Source: an uncultured Flavobacteriaceae bacterium (lineage in GTDB: Bacteria > Bacteroidota > Bacteroidia > Flavobacteriales > Flavobacteriaceae). Taken from it: a stretch of 64,000 nt of DNA. Positions within the stretch are counted from its first letter, which is position 1, and every line of letters begins with the position of its first letter. Both the position numbers and the translations under genes were made by a program. Shown here piece by piece: positions 24,124 to 62,114 of this stretch. The notes under the pieces are model-generated. The model saw only the letters and a list, made by a program, of their open reading frames with translations, was not told the origin of the DNA and did not search any database. The stretch is from assembly GCA_947488345.1 (NCBI GenBank), contig CANKZQ010000002.1, positions 434,001-498,000 on the forward strand. The letters are read 5' to 3'.

Positions 24124-27100
24124 TTACTGATTATTTAACTTAAAGAGCTGTATATCATCATTGTTGTTGGCCACAATTATCAATTGCTCATCGGTGTTAG
24201 ATATCATCTTTATTTTCTTAGCATCTTTATTCGCAAAAAAGCCACTTTCTAGATTAGACATCGTTGTAAAACCATTTTTACCATCACCAAATAATACAAC
24301 CCCTGTACCAGCATCATTTCTTGGGGTTTCTATTTCAGAGACAAAAAGATTGCCCACCAGCAATATATCTAAATTGCCATCGCTATTTAAATCTTTTATT
24401 AGCAGGTCATTCACACTTGAAAACTGAGCTTCAACTGGTAATAGTTTAACGGCGAACTTTCCGTTTCCTAAATTTTCTATAAACGAGGTTCCAAAAGTTG
24501 TTGCTTTATAATATATGGCATCATCCAAGTTTTCTGCACCATAGACATCTGTTAGTTCCATACTTGCAAATGCGTCATATTTGCCAATGGTTTTCTTTAA
24601 TTCTGGTATCTGAGTCGAAGAACATGAAAAACCACGTAAAGGATAATGTTTCTCTGCATTATAATAACCTAAGACAATATCTCCTTTCCCATTTCCATCA
24701 AAGTCCTTATAGTAAACATCGAAGGGTTTATCAGGAGACGCTTTATATTTATAGTTCAATCCTAAATTTCCCGCGATATAGTCCATATCTCCATCTTTAT
24801 CAAAATCACCTTGTTCAATACTAAACCACCACCCATTGGTGTTTTCAAAATCGGGAATCGGCTGTTTGCTAAAAGTTCCTTGATTGTTCTGAAATATTGT
24901 AATTGCCATCCACTCGCCAACAATCATTAAATCTAAATCATTATCCGAATCATAATCGGTCCAAATAGCATCTGTAACCAATCCAATTTCGTTTAAATCT
25001 GGGGCTTTGGTTGCCGTAACATCAGTTAGTTTACCATTATTATTTTGTAGCAATTTACTAGTTGCTGGAAGTGGGTATTCGCCGGGCACATGTCTGCTCC
25101 CCACAAATAAGTCGACGTCACCATCGTTATCATAATCATTTGGGATAACCACGCTTCCACTAGCGTTAAACGCTTCAAGGGCATCGACTGACCTCACAAA
25201 GTTACCTTTACCATTATTTAGATAGACTCTATCTCGATAATTTTCGTGTCCTTTTTCATATTCATTACCTCCACTCACAACATATAGATCTTGATCTCCA
25301 TCATTATCTAGATCAAAAAATACCGCATCAATATCTTCAAATAACTTATCTTTTTGGAAAACATTATTTGGACTCAATAAAAAATTTCCAACATCATCTT
25401 GTAAAAACAATTTCGAGGCATAACTAGAAGCTCCTCCAATGAAAACATCCTCTTTTCCGTCATTATTTACATCTGCAACGGCTAAGGAAGGCCCAAATTG
25501 AGATAGTTTATGAGGCAACAAGACTTGAGTTTCGTAATCATCATGATCATTCTCGGTATGTTTATAAGAGATTTTATAGTCGCTTGAAATATCTGTAAAA
25601 AGGCGAATCGCTTCGTTGGGTATTTGTTGACCGATTGATAATCCATCTTCTAGAAATACTTCTATTTCTTGATTTACATTGATATTTTTAAGAATTGTTT
25701 CTGTGTTGTTTGGCCAAATAATTTTAATCTCTTCTACTTTTTTTGCATCAGCTACACCAAAATGTGCACTATTTTCACTCGTAGAATAGATGCCTCTTAC
25801 ATTCGTGGTCTCGAGTACTTGGGTGTCATTCTCATTTTTTAAGAGCACTCTAGTTCCATATAGAGGTCTATTTTTTTTACTTTTTAAGGCCACCCTAATA
25901 TAATTATTCTTTGCATTATTTCGGTAAACAAAGGCCTCATCATTGATATTATTCACCACCAAATCTAAATCTCCATCATTGTCTAAATCGGCATAGGCAG
26001 ACCCATTAGAAAAAGATTTTTGATCCAATCCCCAAGATGATGAAACATTCTCAAAATTGAATTTTCCGTTATTCTTATAAGAATGATTCATTAGTTTCTC
26101 TGAAGGTAATAAGTCTAAGGTTTGTTCTAAATCTAAGATATCCCAGATCGTCACTTCACCTCCGTTGGGATTTTCTTTGGTCCATTTTTGTGCTGATGCT
26201 ACTACGAAATCACCAACAGCTTTAGATCCATCGGTATTTCGAATGTCCCTCAATAGTCCGTTCGTAATATAAATATCCTTCTTGCCATCATTATCAAAAT
26301 CAGCGATAAGGTTCGACCAACTCCAATCTGTCGCTTCGATATTCGCTAAATGCGCAATATCACTAAAGGTGCTATTTCCATTATTCAAATGGAAACTGTT
26401 ATACATGTATTGGTAATGACCGCCGTCGTTCACTACTTTCCAAAAAGCCGCCGGATCCATGCCGCTCATATTCGATTTTGATCTAAAATTATCTTCCGCG
26501 ACCATATCAACTACAAAAATGTCTAAAAAACCATCATTATTGATATCAGAAACATCTACGCCCATGCTGTAAAAAGACATATGATTCAAGGCCTCATCAG
26601 CCACACTTGTAAACGTTCCGTCCTTATTGTTAATATACATAAAATCAGGCGCATAAAAATCATTCGCGACATACAAATCTGTCCAACCATCGTTATTCAA
26701 ATCACTTGCTGAAACGGCATTTGGAAATCCTGGTTTATCTAAACCTGCCATTTTTGTTGTTCTAATGAATTTTTTACCAGCAATATTTCTATATAAAACC
26801 GGTGCATACTGAGGTTGTAATAATTCTGTGCCCGAATACTTAGAATAGCTTCCTGGGTTTGGAGGCTGATTTAAAAGAAAAAGATCTAAAAAACCATCCT
26901 TGTCATAGTCTAGAAAAGTGGCGTGTCGTGTTCTTTCAGAGTTCGCAACTCCAAACTTATCAGCCATTTCTACGAACTTGGCATCTCCTTGATTTATATA
27001 AAGCCTATTCTTTCTGAGCGCTGGTTTATCGTCATATAATTCTTTCGTCACATATATATCTAAGAGACCATCGTTATTAACATCAGCAACAACAACCCCG

Positions 27101-27450
27101 GTTGACCAACTTCCATCATGTATAATGCCTGCAGATTCAGTAATGTCGTCAAACTTAAAATCGCCTTTATTTAGATATAGTTTATCATCCACTAAGTTAC
27201 CTGCGAAATAGATATCTTCTAAGCCATCGTTATTAAAGTCTCCGATTCCAACGCCTGCTCCTCCATAAAAGTTCGCATAGAGTAAGATATTTTTCTCTTT
27301 ATCATCTTTAATTACGTTGTTAAATGTAATGCCCGTTTTCTCGGATGGCATTAAACTAAATAGTGTGGTGTCTACTACCTTTTCTTTGCATGAAGATAAC
27401 ATCAAAACAAAGAAAAGCACTCCCAATATGATTTTATTCATGTATCTCAT
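24124..27450 (-). CDS. Giant VCBS/FG-GAP repeat lipoprotein with ASPIC/UnbV domain
   Basis: An 1108-residue surface or periplasmic lipoprotein. An alternative start three codons later (MNKIILG) is equally good. The lipobox is LMLSSC. Most of the length consists of FG-GAP/VCBS blades with calcium-loop-like DxNxDG motifs, such as DFNNDGLED and DLDNDGDLD, in two propeller regions. Between them, at about 515-600, is the ASPIC/UnbV domain (YGTRVLLKNENDT, then IIWPNN). Such proteins commonly accompany SusC/SusD pairs and are thought to bind glycan or assist the uptake complex. It lies 3' of susD behind a terminator-like hairpin. Confidence 0.9.
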   Translation of the reverse strand: MRYMNKIILGVLFFVLMLSSCKEKVVDTTLFSLMPSEKTGITFNNVIKDDKEKNILLYANFYGGAGVGIGDFNNDGLEDIYFAGNLVDDKLYLNKGDFKFDDITESAGIIHDGSWSTGVVVADVNNDGLLDIYVTKELYDDKPALRKNRLYINQGDAKFVEMADKFGVANSERTRHATFLDYDKDGFLDLFLLNQPPNPGSYSKYSGTELLQPQYAPVLYRNIAGKKFIRTTKMAGLDKPGFPNAVSASDLNNDGWTDLYVANDFYAPDFMYINNKDGTFTSVADEALNHMSFYSMGVDVSDINNDGFLDIFVVDMVAEDNFRSKSNMSGMDPAAFWKVVNDGGHYQYMYNSFHLNNGNSTFSDIAHLANIEATDWSWSNLIADFDNDGKKDIYITNGLLRDIRNTDGSKAVGDFVVASAQKWTKENPNGGEVTIWDILDLEQTLDLLPSEKLMNHSYKNNGKFNFENVSSSWGLDQKSFSNGSAYADLDNDGDLDLVVNNINDEAFVYRNNAKNNYIRVALKSKKNRPLYGTRVLLKNENDTQVLETTNVRGIYSTSENSAHFGVADAKKVEEIKIIWPNNTETILKNINVNQEIEVFLEDGLSIGQQIPNEAIRLFTDISSDYKISYKHTENDHDDYETQVLLPHKLSQFGPSLAVADVNNDGKEDVFIGGASSYASKLFLQDDVGNFLLSPNNVFQKDKLFEDIDAVFFDLDNDGDQDLYVVSGGNEYEKGHENYRDRVYLNNGKGNFVRSVDALEAFNASGSVVIPNDYDNDGDVDLFVGSRHVPGEYPLPATSKLLQNNNGKLTDVTATKAPDLNEIGLVTDAIWTDYDSDNDLDLMIVGEWMAITIFQNNQGTFSKQPIPDFENTNGWWFSIEQGDFDKDGDMDYIAGNLGLNYKYKASPDKPFDVYYKDFDGNGKGDIVLGYYNAEKHYPLRGFSCSSTQIPELKKTIGKYDAFASMELTDVYGAENLDDAIYYKATTFGTSFIENLGNGKFAVKLLPVEAQFSSVNDLLIKDLNSDGNLDILLVGNLFVSEIETPRNDAGTGVVLFGDGKNGFTTMSNLESGFFANKDAKKIKMISNTDEQLIIVANNNDDIQLFKLNNQ

Positions 27451-27465
27451 AAATTTAATCGATAA

Positions 27466-27521: not shown

Positions 27522-29000
27522 CTATTGATCCCACCAAACTCTGGTAGTTAATAGGTCTGGACCTTGCGCAGCAATAGCCGCTGCATAATTGTCCGCATTA
27601 TTTGTGGCTTCACTCTCAGTATATGTTAATCTTCTTGGAATTGTCCCTCCTGTTTCATTACCAGGGTAATTCACTGGCACTAACACTGGAAAACCAGTTC
27701 GTCTCCAATTCGCGAAGGTTTCATATTCATTTAAGAAAGTAGCTACCCAATACTGGTTATTAATTTGCTCTAAGCCATTTGCCCCATCGTATGGATTACT
27801 GGCTAGATAGGCTGTAATATCACCCGGTGCGATAGCTGCATCGTCACTATACAATGTTAACATGTTCATTGCTGCCCTTACACCTGCGTTGTAATTTGTC
27901 TCTGCATCTCCACCAATACCCCATCTTACATTTGCTTCCGCTAACATAAAACGTACTTCAGCATAGGTTTGAAAAATCATAGGTGCATCAAAACCAGCTA
28001 GTATTGCTCTATTAGGTTCTGCATATGCATTTGTGTTATCCTCTCCTGTCATCGCCAACAACATTGCTGCATCTAAACCATTAGGAAAACCTTGTAAGTC
28101 TGCTGGATCGGTACTTTGGTCACCTCGTCTTGCTGCTAAAATTGGCAGTCTAGGGTCGTTTCTCGATTGCATAAAATCAATAAATGTTTTACTCATTCTT
28201 GGATTTCCATCAGCATCAAATACTTCACTAATACCATTTCTATTTTGTGTTACTTCATGTTTCACAAAGAAGATATCATCATTTGATTCCATAACACCTC
28301 CATTAATTGCTTTTGTTGCCCAAGCTTCAGCACCTGATGGATCAACTTTGATCAAACGTAATCCTAATCGCAACATTAATGAGTTTGCTAAACGTTTCCA
28401 TTTGGCTTGATCTCCTTGATAAATGATATCAGCACCTCCAAAAAGGGAAGTTCCTGAGCTCAATGCTGCTGCCGATTCTTCTAATTCTTTTAGTAAATCA
28501 GGATAAATCTCACTTTGCGCATCATATTTCGGTTTTAAAATACCTTCAGTAAAGCCTTTTCCAGCTTCACTATAGGGAATATCTCCGTATAAATCTGTCA
28601 ATCGAGAAAATGCGAACACGCGTAAAATACGGGTAATTGCCTTCATCTCATCAGGTGCACCTTCTTCATCCAATTGTACTAGTAAATCTTCTACACTTTT
28701 AATTGCATTACCGTAGTAACGGTCCATTAAAGATGAACAATATCCTCTATTCCAGGTATACTTATCGCCATCCCAATAACCCGCCGTTGTGGCGATGTGT
28801 TGCATCATAGTAGATTGATAAATCATACCTGCTCTCCAGTTATCATAACGTTCACTCGAAATGAATTTCTGTACAGCGGTCAATTTGGTTCCAGCACCAA
28901 CCTGCACGGGTCTCGCCGGATTCACATTCAATTCCTCAAACCCTTCATCACATGAGGTAATGACAAGTATTGATATTAGTAAATAAAATATTTTTCTCAT
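27522..29000 (-). CDS. SusD/RagB-family outer-membrane glycan-binding lipoprotein
   Basis: A 492-residue lipoprotein from the start MRKIFYLL, which gives a proper signal with lipobox VITSC (Cys17). It looks like the SusD-like_2 subfamily: an early segment NVNPARPVQ, tetratricopeptide-like helices with AFSRLTDLYGDIPYSEA, and a late AEANVRWGIGGDAETNYNAGV. SusD caps the SusC channel and captures oligosaccharides at the cell surface. Its start lies about 10 bp after the susC stop. The specific ligand is inferred from the GH92 neighbours to be an alpha-mannose-rich glycan. Confidence 0.93.
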   Translation of the reverse strand: MRKIFYLLISILVITSCDEGFEELNVNPARPVQVGAGTKLTAVQKFISSERYDNWRAGMIYQSTMMQHIATTAGYWDGDKYTWNRGYCSSLMDRYYGNAIKSVEDLLVQLDEEGAPDEMKAITRILRVFAFSRLTDLYGDIPYSEAGKGFTEGILKPKYDAQSEIYPDLLKELEESAAALSSGTSLFGGADIIYQGDQAKWKRLANSLMLRLGLRLIKVDPSGAEAWATKAINGGVMESNDDIFFVKHEVTQNRNGISEVFDADGNPRMSKTFIDFMQSRNDPRLPILAARRGDQSTDPADLQGFPNGLDAAMLLAMTGEDNTNAYAEPNRAILAGFDAPMIFQTYAEVRFMLAEANVRWGIGGDAETNYNAGVRAAMNMLTLYSDDAAIAPGDITAYLASNPYDGANGLEQINNQYWVATFLNEYETFANWRRTGFPVLVPVNYPGNETGGTIPRRLTYTESEATNNADNYAAAIAAQGPDLLTTRVWWDQ

Positions 29001-29010
29001 ATCTATTGCT

Positions 29011-32000
29011 TTAAAACTTAACATTTAAATTAAAACCATAACTTCTCGTCGATGGAACACCAAAATATTCTAATCCTTGAGAGTTTCCTGCATTATAAGC
29101 CGATTCAGGATCTATATTATCAATGCTTCTTTTAAGATAAAATAGATTGGAAGCAATTACAGAAACATTCACACTTGTTAAAAATGTTTTCTCTAATAAT
29201 TTGTTAGGCAATCTATATCCTATACTAAGCTGACGTAATTTAATAAAATCTGAATCCTCTACAAACTCTTCTGCGATATCATTTATCTCACCCCAATATG
29301 TTTGTAAATTTTCGGGAGCAACTGTTGTTGTAAAAGGCTGCCCTGTTGCGCCATCGATCCCAGAAACCGTAAGTCCCGTTTCACGTCCTTCAACAGTATC
29401 TTGGTGCAAACCAGTACCGTATAATAATGTATTTGTACCTGAAAATATTTGTCCACCAAATTTCCCATCAATCAATACATTCATTGTAAAGTTCTTAAAT
29501 CTAAATGAATTTGAAAAACCCATTGTTGTTGGAGGAACTCCTTGACCTAATATTTTACGAGCTCCTTCTCTTGCTCTTGGTACGCCATCACCATCAATAT
29601 CATAAATGATGGTTCCATTGGCATCTCTTTCATAAGACACTCCGAATAAGGTACCATAGTTCTCACCCACTATTTGGGCTACTCTTATATTTCTTGTTCT
29701 TGGCTCATCTAAGAATAATGTTCCACCAGTATCGTTTGTTGCTTCAACGACACCTTTGTTATTTGAGATATTAATACTTGAATTCCAAGAGAAATTTTCT
29801 GTTTTAATCGGTGTTCCTGAAATCAACAACTCAATACCTTTGTTACTTATTTCACCTAAATTCGCTAATGCACTGCTGAATCCAGAAGTTTGAGAAGCAG
29901 AAACACCTACAATATCTCCTATTGTTTCGTTCGAATAATAGGCAAAATCAAATGCCAATCTATTGTTCAATAAACGCGCATCGAATCCAACTTCGAATTC
30001 ATTTTTTTCAAATGGCGTAATATTCTCATTTGGAATCTGACCCCCATTTACTCTTCCTGTCGGTTGACCCAAGAAGCTTTGTCCAAAGATTTCATACGTT
30101 AATGATAAAGAATACGGATCTGGAGCTCCACCAGCTACTTGAGAATAACTACCTCTTAACTTTAAGAAATTAATGGCAGAAGGGAGCTCTAGGGCTTCCG
30201 AAAGAATTACACTCGCATTGATCGAAGAATAAAAATCATCGTTTGGTGTTGTTTTACCTGGAAAAGACAAGGTCGAGAACCAGTCATTTCTTCCTGTAAA
30301 AGTCAAATACGCCCAATTGTTATAACCTACCTCAACCGAACCATATAATGATCCAATTTTAATCTCACTAAAAGTACGACTTCTTGATTGTGATAAGGTA
30401 TTACTCAAATCTTCTAAACCTGGTACGATAAAATCACCACCTCCAAGATTGAGTTGCTCTCTTTTTTGCGTATTACTATTCGCTCCTACCAATGCATTAA
30501 GAGAGAACTTATCGTTAATATCTTTTTCAACTCCCAAAATAATATCCGCATCTACTTGTGTATATCTTCGTTCTTCTTCATTGATACTTCCGTTAGGCTG
30601 AAAGCCTGTTCCGAAAGGTGTTACCCCAACACTTTTACGCGTAGAGTGATCTACTCCCATACGACCAGTTATATACAACCAATCTAACACATCATAACGT
30701 AATGAAGTCGATGCAACAATTCTATTTCTAACATCCTCGTTTCTGAAATTAAATGCTGCGAAATACGGATTTTGTGAGAATATGTTACTCGAATACCCTC
30801 TTTCACTTCCGTCTTCATTTGTTGCTGGTAACAAACTACGAACATCTAAGTTTCCTGGTAATAAGGCCACCGTAAAGTTGGCATTACCTGGTGAATCAGA
30901 CAAGCGAGGTCTATTTCTTACATTCTCGATCGAATATTTTGCATTTACAGACGTTGTTAACTTTTTCGCCAATACACTACTAGCGTTTAAAGAAAAGGTC
31001 TTTCTATTTAATCCTGAATTGGGAAGTACATCGTCATTCGAAAAATCAGATACTGAAAAACGATAATTTGAATTTTCTGTACTATTTGATAGTGCGACAG
31101 TTGTTATGTACGTTTCACCTGTTCTGTAAAATGCATCTACATTATTGCCTACATATGAATAAGGTCTTGAAACACCATCGAACTGAACAACACTGCTACC
31201 ATCAAATCGTGGCCCCCAAGAAGAAATTCCTGCATCGAGTGCCTCCTGTTGACTTCCAGGCTTAGCCCCTCGAACACCTTGTCCGTACTGAGTTTGAAAA
31301 TCTTGTAAAGAAGTATCTACATTATCAAATGTTATTTGGCTGCTTATTTCAACACCAAAACCTTTTTGAGATTTTCCTGATTTCGTAGTTACGATAATTA
31401 CACCATTCGAAGCTCTAGAACCATAAAGTGCCGATGCGGCTCCACCTTTTAAGACACTTACAGATTCAATATCATCTGGACTCAAACTAGAGATTCCGTC
31501 ACCTCCGTCGTTACCACCCCAAAGACTTGCCGAACCATTATTGTCATTCCCAATTGGAATTCCATCGACAACATATAAAGGTTGGTTGCCTCCAGCTAAT
31601 GAACTAGCCCCACGAATAATTACTCTACTTGAACCACCAGCTCCAGTAGCATTCTGGGTAATATTTACCCCTGCTATTTTACCTTGTAATGAGTTAATTG
31701 CATTCGGAGTTTTAATCGTCGATATGGCATCGCCCCCTACTTGAGTCAACGAATAACCTAAGGCCTTTGTTTCCTTTTTAATACCTAAGGCTGTTACTAC
31801 AACCTCATCTAAGGCCTCTGTGCCTTCTTCTAAGGCTACGTTAATAACTGAATCAGCTCCTACTGTAACTTCTTTTGTAATGTACCCGAGAAATGAAAAC
31901 TGCAACACAGCACCTTCACCAGACACGTCTATAGAATAATTACCGTCAATATCAGAAGTCACTCCATTCGAAGTACCCTTTTCAAGAACGGTCACACTGG

Positions 32001-32118
32001 GTAGTGTAATTCCATCATTGCTATCGGTAATAGTTCCAGTTATTGTCTTTTGGGCCATGACGCTCTGAGCACCTATTAGCAAAACCAAAGACAATAGCTT
32101 TAGTACTTTTTGGATCAT
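29011..32118 (-). CDS. SusC/RagA-family TonB-dependent glycan transporter
   Basis: A 1035-residue outer-membrane transporter. It has a signal peptide (cleavage after SVMA, residue 22), a CarboxypepD_reg-like domain (about 25-105), the EALDEVVVTALGI segment typical of the SusC plug start, a plug domain (about 115-235) with RGASSLAGGNQPLYVVDGIP, and a long beta-barrel ending in NLNVKF. No STN or anti-sigma-binding extension precedes the regulatory domain, so it should not signal to an ECF sigma factor. With the SusD protein it forms the importer of the locus. The 259-bp leader upstream carries direct repeats and no exact -7 consensus. Confidence 0.95.
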   Translation of the reverse strand: MIQKVLKLLSLVLLIGAQSVMAQKTITGTITDSNDGITLPSVTVLEKGTSNGVTSDIDGNYSIDVSGEGAVLQFSFLGYITKEVTVGADSVINVALEEGTEALDEVVVTALGIKKETKALGYSLTQVGGDAISTIKTPNAINSLQGKIAGVNITQNATGAGGSSRVIIRGASSLAGGNQPLYVVDGIPIGNDNNGSASLWGGNDGGDGISSLSPDDIESVSVLKGGAASALYGSRASNGVIIVTTKSGKSQKGFGVEISSQITFDNVDTSLQDFQTQYGQGVRGAKPGSQQEALDAGISSWGPRFDGSSVVQFDGVSRPYSYVGNNVDAFYRTGETYITTVALSNSTENSNYRFSVSDFSNDDVLPNSGLNRKTFSLNASSVLAKKLTTSVNAKYSIENVRNRPRLSDSPGNANFTVALLPGNLDVRSLLPATNEDGSERGYSSNIFSQNPYFAAFNFRNEDVRNRIVASTSLRYDVLDWLYITGRMGVDHSTRKSVGVTPFGTGFQPNGSINEEERRYTQVDADIILGVEKDINDKFSLNALVGANSNTQKREQLNLGGGDFIVPGLEDLSNTLSQSRSRTFSEIKIGSLYGSVEVGYNNWAYLTFTGRNDWFSTLSFPGKTTPNDDFYSSINASVILSEALELPSAINFLKLRGSYSQVAGGAPDPYSLSLTYEIFGQSFLGQPTGRVNGGQIPNENITPFEKNEFEVGFDARLLNNRLAFDFAYYSNETIGDIVGVSASQTSGFSSALANLGEISNKGIELLISGTPIKTENFSWNSSINISNNKGVVEATNDTGGTLFLDEPRTRNIRVAQIVGENYGTLFGVSYERDANGTIIYDIDGDGVPRAREGARKILGQGVPPTTMGFSNSFRFKNFTMNVLIDGKFGGQIFSGTNTLLYGTGLHQDTVEGRETGLTVSGIDGATGQPFTTTVAPENLQTYWGEINDIAEEFVEDSDFIKLRQLSIGYRLPNKLLEKTFLTSVNVSVIASNLFYLKRSIDNIDPESAYNAGNSQGLEYFGVPSTRSYGFNLNVKF

Positions 32119-41016: not shown

Positions 41017-41024
41017 AGTACTAA

Positions 41025-42482: not shown

Positions 42483-42487
42483 TGTTC

Positions 42488-48476: not shown

Positions 48477-48510
48477 AATTTCTATTCTCTTGATTCGATA
48501 TTTAGTTTTT

Positions 48511-52479: not shown

Positions 52480-54732
52480 CTATTTTTGTGTTCCCCAACT
52501 TTTATTGGGCGTTTTTCCCATTTTAAAATGAAGTGTTCCTCCATTCAATATTTCGGCGTGTGTGATGCTGGTTCTGTTAAATTCTATTCCATTTAAGGTA
52601 GCAGATTGTATATATCTGTTAGTATCAGATGAATTTTCAGCGATAATCGTAAAGATTTTATCAGCCCCTAATTTTATTTTGGATTTTTCGAACAAAGGAC
52701 TTCCGATTTGATACTCACCTAAAGCAGGGTCAACGGCATAAAAGCCGAGAGCACTCAACACATACCATGCAGACATTTGACCACAATCTTCATTTCCACT
52801 TAATCCATTGGGTGTATTATTATATTGTGTTTTTAAAATTTCACGCACCCAATATTGAGTTCTCCAAGGTTTATTTGCATAATTAAATAGATAAGCTATA
52901 TGATGACTCGGCTCATTACCATGAGCATATTGCCCCATTAACCCAGATATATCTGGAGAAACATTATTTCCATTAATTTCTGATGATTCGGTAAAAAGCT
53001 GTTCTAACTTATCTGTGAATTCCTCTTCTCCTCCAAAAATCTTCACTAAGTTGGGGGCATCATGTAAGACAAACCAACTATGTTGCCAAGCGTTTCCTTC
53101 GGTATAATCAGCTTGTTTTCTGTGAGCAGCGTGCTTCGGATCGAAAGGCTCGCGCCATGCGGTGCCCTCCTTATTTTTGCCACGCATAAATCCAGTTTTT
53201 AAGTCAAACAAATGCATATATGCCTTTGATCTATTTAAAAAATAAGTATGATCTTCTGTTTTTCCTAAAGCCTTCGCAATTTGCGCAACGCAGTAATCAT
53301 TATAGGCATATTCTAAGGTAATAGTGACCGATTCTTCTAGTAGTTCGTGCGGTATATATCCATATTTTTTGTAATGATTTAAACCGCGTTCGTCTTGCAT
53401 CATCGTCGCTTTCATAGCTTTATACGCTTTTTCAATATCAAACCCCCTTATGCCTTTGATATACGCTTCTGCTATTACGGGTATTGAATGATAGCCAGTC
53501 ATGGTATTTGTTTCATTACCATAAAGCGTCCATACGGGCAATCTCTCATTTACAGTATAATACAACAACATTGAATTGATGATATCTGGTACCTTATCGG
53601 GAGCCACAAGTGTCATCAAGGGGTGTGCTGCTCTAAAAGTATCCCATAGAGACAAGGTTGAATATGAGAGATGCTCTGTTTTTATGATCGAATCATTCTC
53701 CAAACGAAATTCTCCATTTGCATCATTAAAGGTAACAGGTGCCACTTGTGAATGGTAAAGCGCCGTGTAAAAAGTAGTTTTTAAAGTATCATGAGGTGTT
53801 TCAACTTCTATCTTGGATAATAAGTTCTCCCAATCATTATTCGCTAAAGTTTTAACTTCATCAAAGGCAAATTTTCCGTTATGCATATGCATATTAGCCA
53901 TCGCATTTTCTTCACTTACTGAAGATAGCGCTACTTTTACGTAGATGTTTGGCTTTGTTAAGGTATTAAAAAACAGTTGCGCGGCAGTACTTGGCCCTGT
54001 TACTTCATTTTCAGTACTATTCTTTGCATTTTCCACCAAAGTATAATCGGACATAGATTTGGAGAATTTTATAGCAAAAAACACTTTCTGATTCTTTGCC
54101 CATCCCGTACTATGACGATATCCTACTAAGGTGTGTTTGTCTACCACTTTAATTTTAGAAATAGTCGTTTTGTCCCAATTCGTGGTATAACCTAAATCTA
54201 ATATAATTGACTGTATATCTCCTTTTTCGAATGTGTATTTATGAAACGCTGTTCGTAAGTCGGATGTTAACTCAGCCCTCACATTATGATCATTTAAATA
54301 CACGTTATAATATCCTGGGCTCGCACTTTCATTTGTATGTTCGTACGAAGATTTATAAGGAATCTCATCACGATTTTTAAATGTTTGTTCAAGATTCACC
54401 TTTTTGTTGATAGGCATTAATCGAATATCAGTGAGATCTCCTATCCCCGTTCCGCTTAAGTGCAAATGACTAAATCCGATAGTAATTGAATCAGAATAAT
54501 GATATCCTGAACACCAATCCCAGCCTTGGATGCCATTATCTGGACTTACTTGCAACATACCATTCGGAATTGTAGCTCCTGGATAGGTATGACCATGCCC
54601 ACCAGTTCCAATAAATGGATCAACAAAATGGGTCAGAGAAACAGTAGGTTGATCGGCATCATTTTCGGGATTATTACACGACGTTGTATACAGTAATAAT
54701 CCAATAAAATAATATAAATAGCTTATTTTCAT
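52480..54732 (-). CDS. GH92 family alpha-mannosidase (4), lipoprotein
   Basis: A 750-residue lipoprotein (lipobox YTTSC). The N-terminal domain has DPFIGTGGHGHTYPGATIPNG and GFSHLHLSGTGIGDL, the canonical GH92 pattern. The catalytic domain has Glu545 in YTEGNAWQHSW and Glu648-Asp649 in GNEDCGQMSAWY. It is closest to the third GH92 copy by these motifs. It is the first gene of the five-gene operon with the symporter, GH130, CBM9-like and third GH92 genes, and is divergent from the LytS/LytTR pair across a 130-bp gap, which is where regulation of both units is likely. Confidence 0.94.
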   Translation of the reverse strand: MKISYLYYFIGLLLYTTSCNNPENDADQPTVSLTHFVDPFIGTGGHGHTYPGATIPNGMLQVSPDNGIQGWDWCSGYHYSDSITIGFSHLHLSGTGIGDLTDIRLMPINKKVNLEQTFKNRDEIPYKSSYEHTNESASPGYYNVYLNDHNVRAELTSDLRTAFHKYTFEKGDIQSIILDLGYTTNWDKTTISKIKVVDKHTLVGYRHSTGWAKNQKVFFAIKFSKSMSDYTLVENAKNSTENEVTGPSTAAQLFFNTLTKPNIYVKVALSSVSEENAMANMHMHNGKFAFDEVKTLANNDWENLLSKIEVETPHDTLKTTFYTALYHSQVAPVTFNDANGEFRLENDSIIKTEHLSYSTLSLWDTFRAAHPLMTLVAPDKVPDIINSMLLYYTVNERLPVWTLYGNETNTMTGYHSIPVIAEAYIKGIRGFDIEKAYKAMKATMMQDERGLNHYKKYGYIPHELLEESVTITLEYAYNDYCVAQIAKALGKTEDHTYFLNRSKAYMHLFDLKTGFMRGKNKEGTAWREPFDPKHAAHRKQADYTEGNAWQHSWFVLHDAPNLVKIFGGEEEFTDKLEQLFTESSEINGNNVSPDISGLMGQYAHGNEPSHHIAYLFNYANKPWRTQYWVREILKTQYNNTPNGLSGNEDCGQMSAWYVLSALGFYAVDPALGEYQIGSPLFEKSKIKLGADKIFTIIAENSSDTNRYIQSATLNGIEFNRTSITHAEILNGGTLHFKMGKTPNKSWGTQK

Positions 54733-54862: not shown

Positions 54863-55942
54863 ATGTCCTTAAAAACGAAAAAAAGATATCTTAAGTCACA
54901 AGCTGTGCGACAAATAACACTCAGGCATCATGTTATTTTTTGGTCTATTTATTTTTTGTTTAACACATTGCGTTGGGGTAGTTATTTCAATGATTATGGC
55001 TACTCATTAAAAACGAATATTATAGGCTTCCCTATTCATATGATATTGACTTATCTGAATATATTTGTGTTAATGCCGCGACTCCTTTATAAGCGAAAAT
55101 ACCTACTGTATATACTTTTTCTAGTGGCCTCATTATTTCTCATGGTACTTGTTAAATTTAATCTCACTTATTTTCTTGTGAGTAAAAATGTTTGGCCTGA
55201 AGGTCCAGAAATTATAAATACGCTTACGTTGAACTATTCTATAGACATGATGATTGGTGAATTATATGTAATTACTTTTGTAACAGCCATAAAAGTGACT
55301 ATGGATTGGCTCGCTGAGCATAAACGATTGACAGATCTGGAAAAGGTTCAATTAGAAACGGAACTCTTATTTTTAAGAACTCAGATTTCTCCACACTTCT
55401 TTTTTAATACCTTAAATAACATCTATTCATTGGCAATAGAAAAATCTGGAAAAACGCCAAAAGTAGTATTAAAGCTATCTGAATTAATGCGATACTTATT
55501 ATATGAGACTAAGAACAAACGTCAAAGTTTGGAAAAAGAGATTATATGTATTCAAAATTATTTGGATTTAGAACGCATACGACATGAAGAATTATTAGAA
55601 GTTGATATGAAGATTTCGGGTGATATCAAACAAAAAAAAATAGCTCCTATTATTCTATTGTCATTTGTTGAAAATGCTTTTAAACATGGTGTGAACAAGA
55701 ATATTGGCAAAGTAAAAATTAACATTGATTTTAAAATAGAAGGAAATTTTCTTTACTTTACCATTGATAATCCTACACCGAAAACTACGGTTCATAAACA
55801 ACAGGTCACGAAATCTAGTGGAATTGGATTAAAAAATGTAAAGAAACGATTGGCTCTAGGATATCAGCCAAACGAGTATGATTTACAAATCAAAAGCACG
55901 AAAGAACTCTATACAGCGAATCTTAAAATTAAATTGAAATGA
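54863..55942 (+). CDS. LytS-type sensor histidine kinase of the PUL
   Basis: A 359-residue membrane kinase with four hydrophobic segments (about 24-38, 52-71, 80-105, 122-145), a coiled-coil linker and the His_kinase domain with His178 in SPHFFFNTL. The N-box is LLSFVENAFKHG and the G-box GIGLKNVKKRL. It overlaps the LytTR regulator by 4 bp. It is divergent from the GH92-symporter-GH130 operon, so it is the best local candidate for controlling the mannan locus, a role that hybrid two-component or ECF systems fill in most Bacteroidota PULs. What it senses is not visible in its short membrane domain. Confidence 0.93.
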   Translation: MSLKTKKRYLKSQAVRQITLRHHVIFWSIYFLFNTLRWGSYFNDYGYSLKTNIIGFPIHMILTYLNIFVLMPRLLYKRKYLLYILFLVASLFLMVLVKFNLTYFLVSKNVWPEGPEIINTLTLNYSIDMMIGELYVITFVTAIKVTMDWLAEHKRLTDLEKVQLETELLFLRTQISPHFFFNTLNNIYSLAIEKSGKTPKVVLKLSELMRYLLYETKNKRQSLEKEIICIQNYLDLERIRHEELLEVDMKISGDIKQKKIAPIILLSFVENAFKHGVNKNIGKVKINIDFKIEGNFLYFTIDNPTPKTTVHKQQVTKSSGIGLKNVKKRLALGYQPNEYDLQIKSTKELYTANLKIKLK

Positions 55943-56649
55943 ATGTAAAATGTTTGATAATAGATGATGAGCCTTTGGCAATCAATGTCATTAAGAACTA
56001 TTTAAAGCAGTTTAACACTATTGAAATTGTAAATACATTCAACAACGCAATTGAAGGATTGGAATTTCTAAAGAGTAATGATGTTGATCTTATTTTCTTG
56101 GATATCAACATGCCATTATTAGATGGGTTAAATTTCATTAAAAGCCTTAAAGTCAAGCCTTTAATTATTATTACCACTGCATATGAAGAATATGCTGTAA
56201 AAACCTATGAACTAGATGTACTTGATTATTTGGTAAAACCTATCTCATTACCGCGTTTTATGATTGCTATCAATCGAGTTTTTGAAGTGCAAAACCAACA
56301 TACACCGACCCTTAAAAAAACAAACGACCGACCTTACATTTTTGTAAAAATTGACAAAAAGAAAATGAAAAAGATATACTTAGATGATATCTTAGTTATT
56401 GAATCTTTGAGAGATTATTTGAAAATTAGCACCACGACCAATCGCTATATTATCCATCAAACACTCTGCAGTTTTACAGATCAACTCCCACAAGATAACT
56501 TCATAAGAATTCATAGGTCTTACACTGTCGCGATCAATAAAATTGAAACCGTTGAAGGCAATTGTGTCGAAATCGATGGCATTAGATATGTAATAGGGCG
56601 CACCTATATAGAAACGGTCAAAGCAAAAATTTTAAATTCGGCAATATAA
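55939..56649 (+). CDS. LytTR-family response regulator of the PUL
   Basis: A 236-residue regulator. The receiver has D9/D10, phospho-acceptor Asp55 in FLDINMPLLDG and the lysine in LDYLVKPIS. A linker leads into the LytTR DNA-binding domain (about 135-236), with KIYLDDILVIESLRDYLKI and FIRIHRSYTVAINKIETVEG. It is translationally coupled to the kinase before it and converges with the sulfatase gene 21 bp downstream. It probably activates the divergent GH92 operon and perhaps susC; no LytTR-type site pair was confirmed by eye. Confidence 0.93.
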   Translation: MNVKCLIIDDEPLAINVIKNYLKQFNTIEIVNTFNNAIEGLEFLKSNDVDLIFLDINMPLLDGLNFIKSLKVKPLIIITTAYEEYAVKTYELDVLDYLVKPISLPRFMIAINRVFEVQNQHTPTLKKTNDRPYIFVKIDKKKMKKIYLDDILVIESLRDYLKISTTTNRYIIHQTLCSFTDQLPQDNFIRIHRSYTVAINKIETVEGNCVEIDGIRYVIGRTYIETVKAKILNSAI

Positions 56650-56670: not shown

Positions 56671-58089
56671 TTATTCGTTGATTCTACCAATGGGCCTATT
56701 CTCATTCCCGTTTTTATCTGATAAAGCATCTCCTAATTTAGCTCTTATCTCGTCTCCAAGTAATTTTATTTTGGCAACCACTTCGGGATATTCGGAAGCC
56801 ACATTGAGGGTTTCACTGATATCTTTTGACAAATCGTACAACTCTATATTTTCAATCAAGTTATAGTCATAATCGACTGGAAGTCCGCCTTTACCTCCTT
56901 CTCGCCCATTTAAGGTTCTATATTTATGCGGGAAGTATAGTTTCCATTTTCCATATCGAATTCCGTGAAGTTCATTCACATGATAATAAAAATAGTATGC
57001 TTCTTGAGGTGAGGCATTCGAATCACCTGTCCAAATTTGCCAAACACTCTTACCATCGATTGTATGCTTCGGTAATTTCGCTCCAGTAATTTCGGCAATA
57101 GTTGGGAGTATATCAATAGCCATCATAGGCACATTAACTACTCTTCCTGGTGTTATTTTTTTCGGATATTTTATAATGCATGGCTCTCGCTGCCCTCCTT
57201 CTAATGCCGTTCCTTTTCCTTCACGTAATGGATATGCACAGCCCGCATGATCCCCATAATTTAGCCATGGTCCATTATCAGATGTGAAAATCACTATGGT
57301 ATCATCTTCAAGGCCATGCTTCTTTAATGTCGTTAATACCTGCCCAACAGACCAATCAATTTCCATGATCACATCACCATATAAACCTCGTTCTGATTTT
57401 CCTTTAAACTTATTAGATACGGCCAACGGTACATGAGGTTGCGGGTGGGCTATATACAAGAAGAAAGGGTCCTCCTTGTTTCGTTCGATAAAATCGACAC
57501 TTCGTTCTGTAATTTGAGTGGTTAATGATGATTGGTTTGTTAAGGTATCAATAATAGTTTCATTCTCAAACAATGGCAATGGATCAAAGTCAAAAATAGG
57601 GCCTTGCTGCGGATGAAACGGCCACATATCATTTGAATAGGGAATGCCAAAATATTCATCAAACCCTTGCTTATTGGGCATAAATTCTGGATGGTCTCCT
57701 AAATGCCATTTTCCAAATATCCCTGTCTTATAATCGATCTCCTTGAGCATTTCGGCTATAGTGGTTTCTGAAAGATTCAATCCTTGTTTACTACTCGGCA
57801 TAAAAGCACCATGCACACCTATTCGATTCGGATAGCAGCCGGTTAGTAGACCAGCTCGAGAGGCAGAACATACAGCCTGTGCGGCATAAAAATCTGTCAA
57901 ACGAATACCATCTTTTGCCATTTGATCTAAATGAGGTGTTTTGATATCAGTGGCTCCAAAACAACCAACATCTTGATACCCTTGATCGTCAGTAAAGATG
58001 ATAACCACGTTTGGTTTTCTTGAATCTATAGGGTCTTTCGTTGTACAAGAAATGCACACAACTAAAAATAAGAGAAGTATTCTGTTCAT
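56671..58089 (-). CDS. Formylglycine-dependent sulfatase (S1 family)
   Basis: A 472-residue exported sulfatase, probably a lipoprotein (Cys15). The metal-binding start is IIFTDDQGYQDVG. The signature C74SASRAGLLTG provides Cys74, which would be converted to formylglycine. Further active-site parts are GKWHLGDHPE, FTSDNGPWLNYGDHAG and a Lys in EGGQREPCIIKYPKK. It should cleave sulfate esters from a glycan outside the cytoplasm. It is the last gene of an operon with an esterase, a DUF1080 protein and a cytochrome c protein, suggesting that the target glycan is sulfated. Subfamily unassigned; the needed maturase is not in this window. Confidence 0.93.
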   Translation of the reverse strand: MNRILLLFLVVCISCTTKDPIDSRKPNVVIIFTDDQGYQDVGCFGATDIKTPHLDQMAKDGIRLTDFYAAQAVCSASRAGLLTGCYPNRIGVHGAFMPSSKQGLNLSETTIAEMLKEIDYKTGIFGKWHLGDHPEFMPNKQGFDEYFGIPYSNDMWPFHPQQGPIFDFDPLPLFENETIIDTLTNQSSLTTQITERSVDFIERNKEDPFFLYIAHPQPHVPLAVSNKFKGKSERGLYGDVIMEIDWSVGQVLTTLKKHGLEDDTIVIFTSDNGPWLNYGDHAGCAYPLREGKGTALEGGQREPCIIKYPKKITPGRVVNVPMMAIDILPTIAEITGAKLPKHTIDGKSVWQIWTGDSNASPQEAYYFYYHVNELHGIRYGKWKLYFPHKYRTLNGREGGKGGLPVDYDYNLIENIELYDLSKDISETLNVASEYPEVVAKIKLLGDEIRAKLGDALSDKNGNENRPIGRINE

Positions 58090-58131: not shown

Positions 58132-59223
58132 CTACCAATCAATAGTATCTTCAATAAAAGTAATAAGGCTCTCTGCCATTTTCTTTTGATCTTCAACTGA
58201 TGGATGCGCCGCGGCTTCTATGTAGGGCATAAAATGAGTATATACTGCAGCATCGTTTAAATCTATTACTGCTTTTTCTATGTATCCAATCCATTTTGAA
58301 CCTTCTTTTGCAGCATCCATGCTTCCCAAGGAGCATATGATCGCTGTTTCTGGATATTGCTGTCTTATGTCTTTTATAAATTGCTGATATGCCTTTATTA
58401 TATATACTTCATCTGGTGCTTTATCGCCAAATCTTTTTTTGAACTCTTCATTATCAGGAATATTGACAATCCAAGAATCATTTTGAAACAAATTTACGAC
58501 CACCACATCCGGCTGATACAAAGAAAAATCCCATTTAACTGTGGCGTCTCTGGGGTTTAACCTATCATACATCTCTGGCATGATGAGCGGAATCCAGCTT
58601 ACAGTGATGCCAATACCACTTCTACAAATACAATGATAATCTGCATCAAAATGTCTTGCTGTGATTGCCGCATAACTCGCATAATTATTGGTGTAAGTGC
58701 TATCTGGAGAATCTTTCCCAGATAGATCTTCAACCGCATAACCTGCCGTTATAGAATTACCATAAAACTCTATTTTTCTTTTTGAAGGTGGTGATTCTGA
58801 TAGTAACTTCGCATTGCCTTTTATTTCAAATCCATAAAATGTTGTGGTTCCTCTATCCCATTCTGTACGTTTAAAAATCTCGATTGTATGCTTTCCTTTT
58901 GGCAAATTTGTAGCCAATTGATGATAGCGCTTGATAGTATCGGGCCTCAGTATATAAAGACTATCTTGATCAAGGATTGCATTATAGTAATTATCTCCGT
59001 AATCATCTTTCATTAGCACCGCTATGGATGTTCCTTCAAAATGAAGCTTGACGGATGTTCCTGACCAAAACAGTTGTGTTCCGTTCGTTTTTGTAGCATC
59101 TACTCTCCCATTATAGACTATGTGTGAATTCGTATGTGCAACGTATAGTTCTTGTTTATTTGAACAGGCGACGATCAACATAAATGCTATTAATAGGATA
59201 CTATTTTTGTAAAAATTGATCAT
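58132..59223 (-). CDS. CE2-like SGNH carbohydrate esterase, lipoprotein
   Basis: A 363-residue lipoprotein (lipobox LIVAC, Cys20). The N-terminal jelly roll (about 27-140; YNGRVDATKTNGTQLFWSGT) followed by an SGNH domain is the layout of family CE2 acetyl esterases. Catalytic Ser157 lies in FYGNSITAGY, the Asn of block III in NLFQNDSW, and His340 in EAAAHPS. The Asp expected three residues before His340 is Ala337, matching the Ser-His dyad known for CE2. It would remove acetyl groups from the glycan. The gene lies between the DUF1080 and sulfatase genes with gaps of 22 and 42 bp. Confidence 0.87.
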   Translation of the reverse strand: MINFYKNSILLIAFMLIVACSNKQELYVAHTNSHIVYNGRVDATKTNGTQLFWSGTSVKLHFEGTSIAVLMKDDYGDNYYNAILDQDSLYILRPDTIKRYHQLATNLPKGKHTIEIFKRTEWDRGTTTFYGFEIKGNAKLLSESPPSKRKIEFYGNSITAGYAVEDLSGKDSPDSTYTNNYASYAAITARHFDADYHCICRSGIGITVSWIPLIMPEMYDRLNPRDATVKWDFSLYQPDVVVVNLFQNDSWIVNIPDNEEFKKRFGDKAPDEVYIIKAYQQFIKDIRQQYPETAIICSLGSMDAAKEGSKWIGYIEKAVIDLNDAAVYTHFMPYIEAAAHPSVEDQKKMAESLITFIEDTIDW

Positions 59224-59245
59224 ATGTTCGTTTGAATTGTACTCA

Positions 59246-59947
59246 TTAATTTGATTTTATCAGGGTGGCTGTTCTCTTGTCAATATGTGCAAAGCGTTCT
59301 GGTTCTTCTGTAATGATTTTTATATTGCGCCATCGAATTTCTTTTCCAATATCAAGACTATCTTGAATACTATGTACTTGAAGTCCGATAAAACCGCTGT
59401 CGGTCATAGCATCTTCTAAATTCGACGTATTAATGTCATTCACCCAAACGGCAAGCCGATTTCCAATCGCCTCAATTCGATACTTATTCCATCTACCATT
59501 TTTAAAAGCTTTTCTTCCATCAGGATTGCCTTCAAGATTATATAACCAACCTCTTCTACCTTCATCATATATTCCGCCACTCCAGGCTCTCTTGCTTGGG
59601 TCTATCTCTACTTGATATCCGTGTACTTGCCCGTTCTTATAATCGGATATACTATTGCTACGTATTTGGACGCCAGAATTTATCGTACTATCTACTAAAA
59701 CTTCAAACTCCAAAATGAAATCCGAGAAAATTTCATTTGTACACAAGAACGTATTCGGTGAACCAAATTTAGTTGTGCCAATAATCTGGCCTTCCTTTAT
59801 GACATACGTTGAAGAACCATTTCGAATTTCCCAATTGGTAAGTGTCTTTCCATCAAATAATGAAACCCAAGGGATCTCTCTTTTTTCTGAGCATGAAAAC
59901 AACATCGACACGATGATGGATATTAAAAAATAATTAATACGATTCAT
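59246..59947 (-). CDS. DUF1080 (3-keto-disaccharide hydrolase) lipoprotein
   Basis: A 233-residue lipoprotein (lipobox MLFSC, Cys19). The DUF1080 jelly roll spans about 27-222, with WVSLFDGKTLTNWEIRNG, NSGVQIRS, HGYQVEIDPSKRAWSGGIYDEGR (positions 130-152) and RWRNIKI at the end. Members of this family have been shown to act on 3-keto-glycosides. It overlaps the cytochrome c gene by 14 bp, so oxidation and cleavage could be coupled: the oxidase makes a keto sugar and this protein splits the bond. The coupling is inference; the domain assignment is firm. Confidence 0.88.
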   Translation of the reverse strand: MNRINYFLISIIVSMLFSCSEKREIPWVSLFDGKTLTNWEIRNGSSTYVIKEGQIIGTTKFGSPNTFLCTNEIFSDFILEFEVLVDSTINSGVQIRSNSISDYKNGQVHGYQVEIDPSKRAWSGGIYDEGRRGWLYNLEGNPDGRKAFKNGRWNKYRIEAIGNRLAVWVNDINTSNLEDAMTDSGFIGLQVHSIQDSLDIGKEIRWRNIKIITEEPERFAHIDKRTATLIKSN

Positions 59948-62114
59948 TGAGTTCTTTTACGGTGTATACTTGATCTTTTGGGCGCTTTAAGTTTCGCAGA
60001 CTGTCTACCTTTTTGAGTGTTAGGTTTTGCGGCGAAGTTGTAAAAGCATTCCTAATATAATTTCCTATATCTACAATATCTTGATCAGAAATACTTTCCT
60101 GATTACCAATACCTGGCATGGCTACATTGAATGTATACTCTATCCCATTCACTGAAATAGGACCTGTGAGGCCATACAACATAATTGCTACCAGTTGTTC
60201 TGGGCTTTCCGAAACATATTCAGAATTGAGCAATGGTGGTGCCAACCCTTTAAGTCCTTCACCATCAATTCCGTGACATGAAGCACATTGATTTCTATAT
60301 AATGGCAAGCCACGCGTCAATCCATCTTTTGAAATTGTAGATGTCGTTACTTCTCTTTTTGGCACTTTAAGTGAGTGTAGTTTTGTTTTAATACCATCAT
60401 AGTCATCCGTTAAGTTAAGAAGCAATTCTTCATTTCCTGATACTCCTGAATAAACGGGTTCTAAAAACCACTCTTCTGCATTATATCGCTGTATAAGTTG
60501 TATTAAATACTTACCATTTTCCTCGGTTAGGTGCTTGGCTAAATAAAAACCTAAATGATAATCAATCATTTCATTTTCAATCGCTACTAACTTGGCGATA
60601 ACGCTTGGATCTACTATCTTATCTTGCTGACTCAATAGTTTTAAACTGTGGGCGCATAACGCCGGATTAGACATGATATCAGTATTCATTAAATCTACAT
60701 CATTCAATACTCCTAAACCCTCTAAAGTGTATAAAGCATGTATTCGTGTAACTTCATTTTTGTTAGTGTTTACTATTTCTTTTAATGGTTCAGTGAGTTC
60801 CATGTCTTGAGTATTCACCAATAACTGTTGAGATTTATTTCGTATCCAAGTATTCTCTGAACTTAAAGAATCCAGTAAATTACTAGTCGAAAGTTTTGTT
60901 AAATCAATTTCTCTTATGGTTTTGTGACCTTGCTTGACAACTTTTAAAATACGTCCCATTCCTACAATACTATCCAATCCTTTTTTTATGTATAGATCTC
61001 TCAGATATGATGTCATATATGTCTTATGCTGGATAATACCGCGATGCATGTCTACAATATATAGGGCACCATCGGGTCCATTTTGAAGATTGACAGGTCT
61101 AAAGGCTTCATCTTTTGAAACAAGGAATTCTTTATTTTGCCAAACCTGTTTTCCAGTTCTTCTTAGCGCAAATGGATCAACCACATTTCTCTTGATCAAA
61201 TTTACTTCTGGTCCGCACACAAAAACATTGTCTTGATAATCTTGAGGAAACGAGGTTCCTTGAAAATACAATGGAGCGCAAGCACTAGTAAAATTTATCA
61301 ATTTACCCTCTTCATCTAAATTTCCTTTGATATAACCTCTATTTACAGCCGTGGCTTGAATGGGATAGACCCGTTGATCATTCACAATGGTAATATCTAC
61401 CCCTAATTTAGGTTTAAAATTGGCGTGCTGGTTTAACACGTTGGGCAAGGCCCAGTCACCACGAACTTGATTTGAATTATCATTGTAGAGTAATCTTCCA
61501 ATAGCATCATGTGTAATACCCCATTGCCCTCGAAAAGAAGTATTTTCTATTTTCCATTGCCCGTTTTGTTTTCGATACCGTTTGGTTGACTTTGCATTAT
61601 AAATCCAGTTATCAATATTCATTACTAATCCGTTGGGCTGGTGTTCAACATTGCCTCCTACGGCATAATTAGCGTCTATTAGTGTTCTTTTCCCTGGAGT
61701 TAAATCGTCATTAATCTCGGTAAAATAGAGGTTTGGAGGTTCTGCGTACAACAACCCGCCATAAACATGGGCAATAGCTCTTACCAACTTTAACTGATCT
61801 AGAAAAATAGTGGTATGATCCATCTGACCATCATTATCTTTATCTTCAAAGACTAAAATTCTACCTACTGGCATTTTCGGATCTTTCCCTTCGATGCTTT
61901 GCATATATCCAGCCATTTCTATGGCCCATAAGCGTCCTTGATCGTCAAAACTGATATTTACCGGGGCTTCAACTAACGGTTCTGCCACAACAGCTTTTAA
62001 TTCGAACCCATCCTCTAATTGATACCCGTCGAATGATACATAGGTTTCTTCATACTCCTTTGTACATGAAAAAAATAATAGCACTATAGATAATAGAATG
62101 GGGAATGATTTCAT
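59934..62114 (-). CDS. TIGR02604-type propeller plus HEAT-like region plus cytochrome c, lipoprotein
   Basis: A 726-residue lipoprotein from the start MKSFPILLS (lipobox LFFSC); the longer frame adds four residues. Residues about 20-390 form a membrane-bound-dehydrogenase-like propeller (LVEAPVNISFDDQGRLWAIE, VGRILVFEDKDNDGQMDHT, VNLQNGPDGALYIVDMHRG). A helical HEAT-like region follows (about 400-580). A class I cytochrome c closes it, with CASCH at 610-614 and a likely axial Met666 in VAMPGI. It resembles planctomycete proteins annotated as PVC-type heme-binding. It heads the operon with DUF1080, esterase and sulfatase. No PQQ or FAD motif is visible, so the oxidised substrate and true cofactor are unknown. 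Confidence 0.87.
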   Translation of the reverse strand: MKSFPILLSIVLLFFSCTKEYEETYVSFDGYQLEDGFELKAVVAEPLVEAPVNISFDDQGRLWAIEMAGYMQSIEGKDPKMPVGRILVFEDKDNDGQMDHTTIFLDQLKLVRAIAHVYGGLLYAEPPNLYFTEINDDLTPGKRTLIDANYAVGGNVEHQPNGLVMNIDNWIYNAKSTKRYRKQNGQWKIENTSFRGQWGITHDAIGRLLYNDNSNQVRGDWALPNVLNQHANFKPKLGVDITIVNDQRVYPIQATAVNRGYIKGNLDEEGKLINFTSACAPLYFQGTSFPQDYQDNVFVCGPEVNLIKRNVVDPFALRRTGKQVWQNKEFLVSKDEAFRPVNLQNGPDGALYIVDMHRGIIQHKTYMTSYLRDLYIKKGLDSIVGMGRILKVVKQGHKTIREIDLTKLSTSNLLDSLSSENTWIRNKSQQLLVNTQDMELTEPLKEIVNTNKNEVTRIHALYTLEGLGVLNDVDLMNTDIMSNPALCAHSLKLLSQQDKIVDPSVIAKLVAIENEMIDYHLGFYLAKHLTEENGKYLIQLIQRYNAEEWFLEPVYSGVSGNEELLLNLTDDYDGIKTKLHSLKVPKREVTTSTISKDGLTRGLPLYRNQCASCHGIDGEGLKGLAPPLLNSEYVSESPEQLVAIMLYGLTGPISVNGIEYTFNVAMPGIGNQESISDQDIVDIGNYIRNAFTTSPQNLTLKKVDSLRNLKRPKDQVYTVKELNESY

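Follow-up and report, generated by a model that had tools for sequence, protein, structure and literature searches.

What is a set of c-type cytochromes doing inside a glycan utilization locus built around α-mannosidases? The question is raised by a 64,000-nucleotide stretch of DNA from an uncultured Flavobacteriaceae bacterium (hereafter the window; positions 434001-498000 of contig C2 in a 3.8-Mb assembly that is 95% complete), for which a preliminary description had proposed a mannan utilization locus that combines hydrolysis and phosphorolysis with periplasmic oxidation to keto sugars. We favor another reading: this is probably an N-glycan utilization locus of marine Flavobacteriaceae that has acquired, as one unit, a c-type cytochrome cassette anchored in the membrane. 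The gene families named in that description are all present. Pfam scans of the window proteins revealed four GH92 domains (E values of 4.9e-158 to 3.4e-183), GH130 (1.2e-68), SusC, SusD, an SSF symporter, a CBM9 protein, a CE2-type esterase, a sulfatase, an MFS permease, a DUF1080 protein and three proteins with CxxCH heme motifs. These motifs are confined to the three proteins named there (one motif in 37065-39194, two in 42488-44923 and one in 59934-62126); of 24 window proteins tested, the remaining 21 have none, and shuffled sequences contained at most 0.003 motifs per protein. All four GH92 matches and both PSCyt1 matches found in the whole assembly fall in this locus.

Two of the heme proteins are encoded in a tight five-gene cassette on a single strand (37065-44851; gaps of -1, -4, +8 and +5 bases). 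It consists of a DUF2231-cytochrome (CytA), a lipoprotein, an NHL-repeat protein and a DUF1501 protein with twin-arginine translocation (Tat) signals, and, beside DUF1501, a diheme protein in which PSCyt1, DUF1549 and DUF1553 are fused. Three of these genes (39194-39976, 39973-41016 and 41025-42482) had been overlooked, as had an open reading frame (ORF) on the + strand at 45056-46210; the starts assigned to two of the heme proteins (44851 and 62114) correspond to ATG codons inside ORFs that begin with TTG (42488-44923 and 59934-62126), although 44851 agrees with the ~785-residue length of many homologues. Both CxxCH motifs of the DUF1553 protein are invariant in 57 aligned sequences, and two such motifs are present in 158 of 159 relatives. 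CxxCH was found in 80 of 80 CytA relatives of 640-730 residues, RRx[FL] close to the N-terminus in 79 of 80 NHL relatives and a Tat-like motif in 150 of 153 DUF1501 proteins (motif and identity counts include loci present in two collections; alignments A1 and A2 comprise 56 and 35, respectively, of 72 available relatives). Across 24 chosen loci, DUF1501 is the most conserved part of the cassette (79-94% identity to the window), followed by NHL (71-84%), DUF1553 (59-77%), CytA (44-62%) and the lipoprotein (33-51%). The tail of CytA is carbohydrate-binding-like and is shared with GH20 proteins; BLAST labels of CytA-like proteins were rechecked against GH20 references.

N-glycan loci can do without the cassette, but its presence in them is not random. 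Among 299 genomes of the family, an orthologue of the window GH130 (E <= 1e-60) is present in 46, 17 of which also possess DUF1553. In at least 11 of these 17 (G000, G300, G315, G326, G409, G454, G500, G510, G531, G541 and G549) the two genes are no more than 15 kb apart, compared to 0.35 genomes expected at random positions, a value computed from DUF1553 match counts of which one was at least 8. The loci nearest to that of the window were found in Flavobacteriaceae. Conservation of the cytochrome genes beside GH92 loci, which the preliminary description had proposed as a check, holds for the genes at 37-45 kb, which are kept beside the GH92/GH130 loci of relatives, but not for the pair encoding DUF1080 and a DUF7133-cytochrome at 59-62 kb, which is kept on 1 of 11 flanks. 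When 23 linked loci were compared (L155 and same-contig duplicates were left out), the gene downstream of CytA was most often GH92b (14 of 23), GH29 or GH20 occupied this place in 4, and in 5 (L088, L091, L180, L185 and L186) the cassette stood at the opposite end, with a response regulator upstream of DUF1553. Further contexts include Phaeodactylibacter-type loci (L089, L092 and L094) and a Saprospiraceae locus (L114), and one locus (L237) has a similar backbone and no cassette. The N-glycan label is also clustered on a DUF1501 tree of 147 rows, obtained by a quick search from which ORFs outside 440-560 residues and 7 duplicate rows were left out, because it changes 9 times as opposed to a mean of 28.6 after shuffling; 7 of the changes are forced by starred branches if the 43 rows that are unlabelled owing to short flanks count as without, and gains are not distinguishable from losses. 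The cassette seems to have joined N-glycan-type loci more than once.

For the GH92/GH130 backbone, an N-glycan (glycoprotein) locus is a better reading than a mannan locus. The proposed role of GH92 in α-mannose removal is supported, and the window locus contains a SusC/SusD pair together with several GH92 genes. The mannan assignment fares less well, as orthologous loci hold genes for GH18, GH20, GH29 and glycosylasparaginase, a set that fits N-glycan breakdown. Their variable gene order is GH92d-SSF-GH130-CBM9-(GH18)-orfX-GH92c-(glycosylasparaginase)-(GH20)-GH92b-GH92a, plus GH29 genes. The asparaginase-family protein of one of them (L072) is taken to be a glycosylasparaginase because its nearest solved structures are glycosylasparaginases (3e-125, vs 3e-36 for the best isoaspartyl peptidase). 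A 53% identical homologue is encoded on another contig of the window genome, where no further match to the reference genes was detected within the 10 kb read. The best PDB match of the window GH130 is UhgbMP (4udk; E 1.4e-147, by sequence only). The + strand gene at 45056-46210, orfX, probably belongs to the locus too, because its relatives (12 sequences in the alignment) adjoin the same genes in other loci and the one in L072 matches DUF4015 (1.3e-7) and GHL6, putative glycosyl-hydrolase models. A sulfated algal α-mannan of the diatom type might be the substrate instead. The locus does combine a sulfatase with four GH92, and the C6-sulfated α-1,3-mannan of diatoms is degraded in flavobacteria by GH195, GH92 and two sulfatases (PMC13063451, accessible portion). 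This alternative is unlikely in our view: the reported cascade uses GH195 and two sulfatases, with no GH130 in the main text of that source, whereas a GH130 of the type acting on N-glycan cores and the gene neighbors in relatives suit N-glycans, and the window sulfatase has no match above 28% identity on 9 of 10 other linked-locus flanks, nor in the tenth. A fusion of glucosamine isomerase and PIG-L was recognized by Pfam in L096 (16791-18707), with 58-62% identical relatives near the N-glycan loci L228, L232, L238 and L239.

The cassette is more widespread than these loci. DUF1553 was found in 79 of 299 family genomes and in 15 of 295 genomes of a class sample. From the matches listed, 57 short-type and 23 long-type copies of the family were called up, and ~10 kb around them was read, with GH92 identified by BLAST to the four of the window. 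Among these listed matches, DUF1501 and a CytA-like CxxCH protein accompany DUF1553 in 57 of 57 short-type copies, together with NHL in 26, the lipoprotein in 19 and GH92 in 12 (11 at >=50% identity); GH92 accompanies 1 of the 23 long-type copies. In the 80 loci nearest to the DUF1553 of the window, GH92 was detected in 21, in 20 of them at >=50% identity. One cassette (L170) adjoins relatives of the FGGAP-SusD-SusC genes of the window (59, 71 and 69% identity), and two others (L096 and L098) occur with SusCD, CBM9 and orfX and no GH92 within the stretch read. Some short-type cassettes, such as those of L150 and L166, represent a second recurrent neighborhood; in L150, genes for an efflux protein, Gfo/Idh, an FGE-sulfatase-like protein, YceI and an M20 peptidase lie upstream of the cassette and one for an SDR follows it. 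In L190, L193 and L195-L197 the cassette is preceded by a gene for a ~1300-residue protein, which in L190 is a hybrid two-component regulator, and L094 (9929-17703) contains a tandem double DUF1553-DUF1501 pair within one cassette.

Several observations weigh against an N-glycan locus with a recruited cassette. Common descent of the 11 linked genomes makes them less independent than the chance figure implies, and genome-wide co-occurrence of GH130 and DUF1553 is not significant (17 of 46 vs 62 of 253; p 0.10). No DUF1553 match was found in 29 of the 46 genomes with the GH130 orthologue, one of them of the same genus, and the cassette is therefore dispensable. Most of the sampled cassettes are located away from GH92 (45 of 57 short-type and 22 of 23 long-type copies among the matches listed). 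Nine standalone cassettes from Kordia, Dokdonia, Psychroserpens and similar bacteria are close to that of the window (DUF1553 identity of 72-77%), and their genomes each encode one ~990-residue GH92 that is not within the ~10 kb read. Pfam families for GH18, GH20, GH29, endo-glycosidase/PNGase and glycosylasparaginase are absent among the window-locus proteins scanned, the endo-glycosidase/PNGase, GH20 and glycosylasparaginase being found in the loci of relatives. Finally, we know of no activity for DUF1553, DUF1501 or this NHL protein.

In many genomes the cassette occurs on its own, which means that its function extends beyond mannose. It could be a general module for many glycans, acting for example on their sulfate, phosphate or other substituents, with the cytochromes serving a redox partner, and placed in the N-glycan locus for co-regulation alone, with no N-glycan-specific step. 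We consider this a minority possibility to be taken seriously. It is consistent with the standalone cassettes, with the FGE-sulfatase-like, YceI, M20, SDR and efflux genes beside some short-type cassettes (annotated in L150), with a sulfatase, at any BLAST identity, beside 8 of 57 short-type cassettes among the matches listed, and with the sulfatase-superfamily fold predicted for DUF1501 (see below), but the non-random nearness to GH130 and the joining of several arrangements to one backbone speak against it. Our preferred reading remains a cassette recruited into an N-glycan locus.

The preliminary description regarded the cytochromes as parts of a single oxidative system. Instead, the DUF7133/DUF1080 pair behaves as a unit separate from the DUF1553/DUF1501 cassette. 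The pair recurs together with the CE2-type esterase and sulfatase at 77-88% identity in a near relative (L221), whereas BLAST (1e-8) of ten other flanks, each 17-20 kb long (L222-L231), detected no window-type DUF1080 or DUF7133. Directly past the DUF7133-cytochrome gene lies a gene for an outer-membrane β-barrel protein (OMP_b-brl_3; 62254-63840), with a 90% identical relative in the same place in L221. According to the model proposed earlier, mannosides are oxidized in the periplasm to 3-keto sugars and cleaved by DUF1080, and electrons pass to all three cytochromes. DUF1080 has been tied to 3-keto disaccharides and forms a pathway with LacABC (Price 2022, PMC9007349, accessible portion), and a DUF1080-Gfo/Idh-GH20-DUF7133 run, checked by Pfam, is present on another contig of G300 (L253). 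Likewise, GH20-DUF1080-Gfo/Idh follows GH92c in the N-glycan locus L232 of a same-genus genome, G413, that lacks the cassette. We nevertheless judge the model unlikely, given the absence of the pair from those ten cassette-linked flanks and the lack, among the 24-62 kb proteins scanned with Pfam, of a known 3-dehydrogenase (no GMC or Gfo/Idh/MocA match at E <= 0.001). DUF7133-DUF1080 adjacency is also uncommon by eye among the matches listed for 60 genomes, and the window genome holds 8 DUF1080 matches, so the presence of a single one here carries little weight. Nor is there support for keto-sugar chemistry on the part of the cassette itself, as the cassette also occurs without any of these genes near. 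Keto-sugar enzymes occur in such loci as a separate, sporadic unit, and the idea stays alive for such N-glycan loci because DUF1080 and Gfo/Idh are found together in L232 and in the N-glycan locus of Aureibaculum luteum (L078), in addition to the run in L253. Pairing of DUF7133 with DUF1080 was rejected as a general rule, the two being seen by eye within ~5 kb, among the matches listed, in the window, G300, G331, G344 and, with a weak DUF7133, G295. Nor was there backing for DUF7133 as a quinoprotein, the PDB matches covering the cytochrome and HEAT-like parts alone.

For the cassette, periplasmic redox chemistry is plausible. The AlphaFold2 model of the anchored DUF1553 protein (predicted local distance difference test score, pLDDT, 83.9; predicted template modelling score 0.85) has no fold match in the PDB by Foldseek (27 matches at E <= 10, the best 0.96), and by sequence its first heme region alone matches solved proteins, FoxE being the best. 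DUF1501 is predicted to have a sulfatase-superfamily fold: its model (pLDDT 76) matches solved sulfatases by Foldseek (probability 1.00, E 7e-6, template modelling score about 0.31), and hhalign gives 90.7% over 109 columns, with EFG of DUF1501 aligned to the sulfatase DNG, which we take to be a metal motif. The sequence [Cys/Ser]-x-Pro-x-Arg, presumably the nucleophile signature of formylglycine sulfatases, is present in 1 of 153 DUF1501 proteins vs 30 of 31 sulfatases, and no Cys is conserved in alignment A2, so formylglycine chemistry is not expected for DUF1501.

Glycans would enter via SusCD, exported GH92s would trim α-mannose, the core would be taken up by the symporter, and Man-β-1,4-GlcNAc would be phosphorolysed in the cytoplasm by GH130, which has no evident signal peptide; these roles are predicted from the families. 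The exported and membrane-bound cassette proteins may act together. From the high conservation of DUF1501, its predicted fold and the heme and membrane parts of its partners, we infer that the proteins form an assembly in the periplasm, bound to the membrane and with DUF1501 close to its center. Most likely, DUF1501, exported by the Tat route and perhaps aided by the NHL protein, acts on a sugar or substituent derived from the glycan; the diheme DUF1553 protein would hand electrons to CytA, and from there they would reach the respiratory chain. A bolder conjecture, of fairly low probability, is that the cassette is a respiratory glycan-processing complex of a kind not yet described, heme-linked and anchored in the membrane. 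By oxidation it would remove or convert a modification that keeps GH92 or GH20 from acting on N-glycans of algae or invertebrates, and the electrons would go directly to the respiratory chain; O-methyl or other substituents are a guess at what that modification might be. If so, Planctomycetes and Verrucomicrobia, with their many PSCyt/DUF1501 sets, would hold relatives of the cassette that serve other glycans.

In Bacteroides, N-glycan loci likewise have SusCD, GH92, GH130 and GH29 genes in one neighborhood; the accessible portions of the two reports, on the breakdown of plant N-glycans (PMC9522356) and on a high-mannose locus (PMC11180146), mention no heme proteins, in contrast to the built-in c-type cytochrome cassette described here, and GH18, GH20 and GH29 lie outside the window's own locus. 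In Verrucomicrobia and Planctomycetes, PSCyt-PSD proteins of the 'Planctomycete-specific' families adjoin unknown families near glycoside hydrolases and sulfatases, some are fused to carbohydrate-binding domains, and a role in carbohydrate metabolism has been suggested (He 2017, PMC5615132, accessible portion). The window differs from those sets in its Bacteroidota origin, its membrane DUF2231-cytochrome, its NHL and lipoprotein partners and its position inside an N-glycan-type locus. As in the 3-keto-glycoside pathway, to the extent that its report is accessible, a DUF1080 lipoprotein stands beside a cytochrome-bearing protein at 59-62 kb; unlike in that pathway, the locus has a DUF7133-HEAT-cytochrome c protein and no LacA-type or Gfo/Idh dehydrogenase. 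The nearness of PSCyt genes to glycoside hydrolases and sulfatases was thus already known, and what we rate as new is that the cassette is linked to N-glycan loci, of which no prior account was found in the open-access literature, judged mostly from listings; nor was a paper found there that names DUF1501 together with DUF1553. Its presence in such loci gives a hint that glycan breakdown may include a respiratory step not described before. A recurrent, optional unit in loci with an inferable substrate offers an entry point, with the substrate class narrowed to N-glycans, and natural pairs with and without the cassette exist (named relatives are Zhouia, Aestuariibaculum, Snuella and Muricauda, with Zhouia amylolytica and Snuella sedimenti among the cultured carriers).

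Table 1. Predicted features of the locus, in window coordinates
Feature	Position	Strand	Basis or remark
MFS permease	22609..23955	-	MFS_1, E 3.9e-23; FucP likeness is a label of the preliminary description; locus edge
FG-GAP/ASPIC-UnbV repeat protein, adjoins SusD	24124..27450	-	Pfam
SusD-like	27522..29024	-	SusD-like_2, E 4.5e-86
SusC-like TonB-dependent transporter	29011..32118	-	Plug, CarbopepD_reg_2
GH92a α-mannosidase	32378..34609	-	Pfam
GH92b α-mannosidase	34693..37026	-	Pfam
CytA: DUF2231 membrane part, PSCyt1 heme domain, Fn3_assoc tail	37065..39194	-	Pfam; F5/8-like end by eye
Lipoprotein like CytA C-terminus	39194..39976	-	CHB_HEX_C_1/Fn3_assoc; lipobox by eye
NHL-repeat protein, twin-arginine signal	39973..41016	-	Pfam
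DUF1501, twin-arginine signal, predicted sulfatase/alkaline-phosphatase-superfamily fold	41025..42482	-	Pfam, 5.9e-158; structure comparison
PSCyt1-DUF1549-DUF1553 diheme c-type protein, N-terminal helix	42488..44851	-	Pfam
orfX, putative glycoside-hydrolase-like lipoprotein	45056..46210	+	No Pfam match of its own; L072 relative
GH92c	46236..48533	-	Pfam
CBM9-like protein	48511..49578	-	Pfam
GH130, nearest solved structure UhgbMP	49591..50580	-	Pfam; PDB sequence match
SSF sodium:solute symporter	50590..52467	-	Pfam
GH92d	52480..54732	-	Pfam
Histidine kinase and LytTR response regulator pair	54863..56649	+	Pfam
Sulfatase, Cys-type signature	56671..58089	-	Pfam; nearest PDB match arylsulfatase A
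CE2-type esterase	58132..59223	-	Pfam
DUF1080 (3keto-disac_hyd) lipoprotein	59246..59947	-	PF06439, E 8.6e-44
CytB: DUF7133, HEAT-like middle, cytochrome c (TIGR02604 type)	59934..62114	-	Pfam; HEAT via family profile

Elsewhere in the window, a molybdopterin-cofactor-binding protein with a Tat signal (MoCoBD_1/2) is encoded at 13421-15616, and three photolyase/cryptochrome-related genes (FAD_binding_7, DPRP and photolyase) are clustered at 16598-21579.

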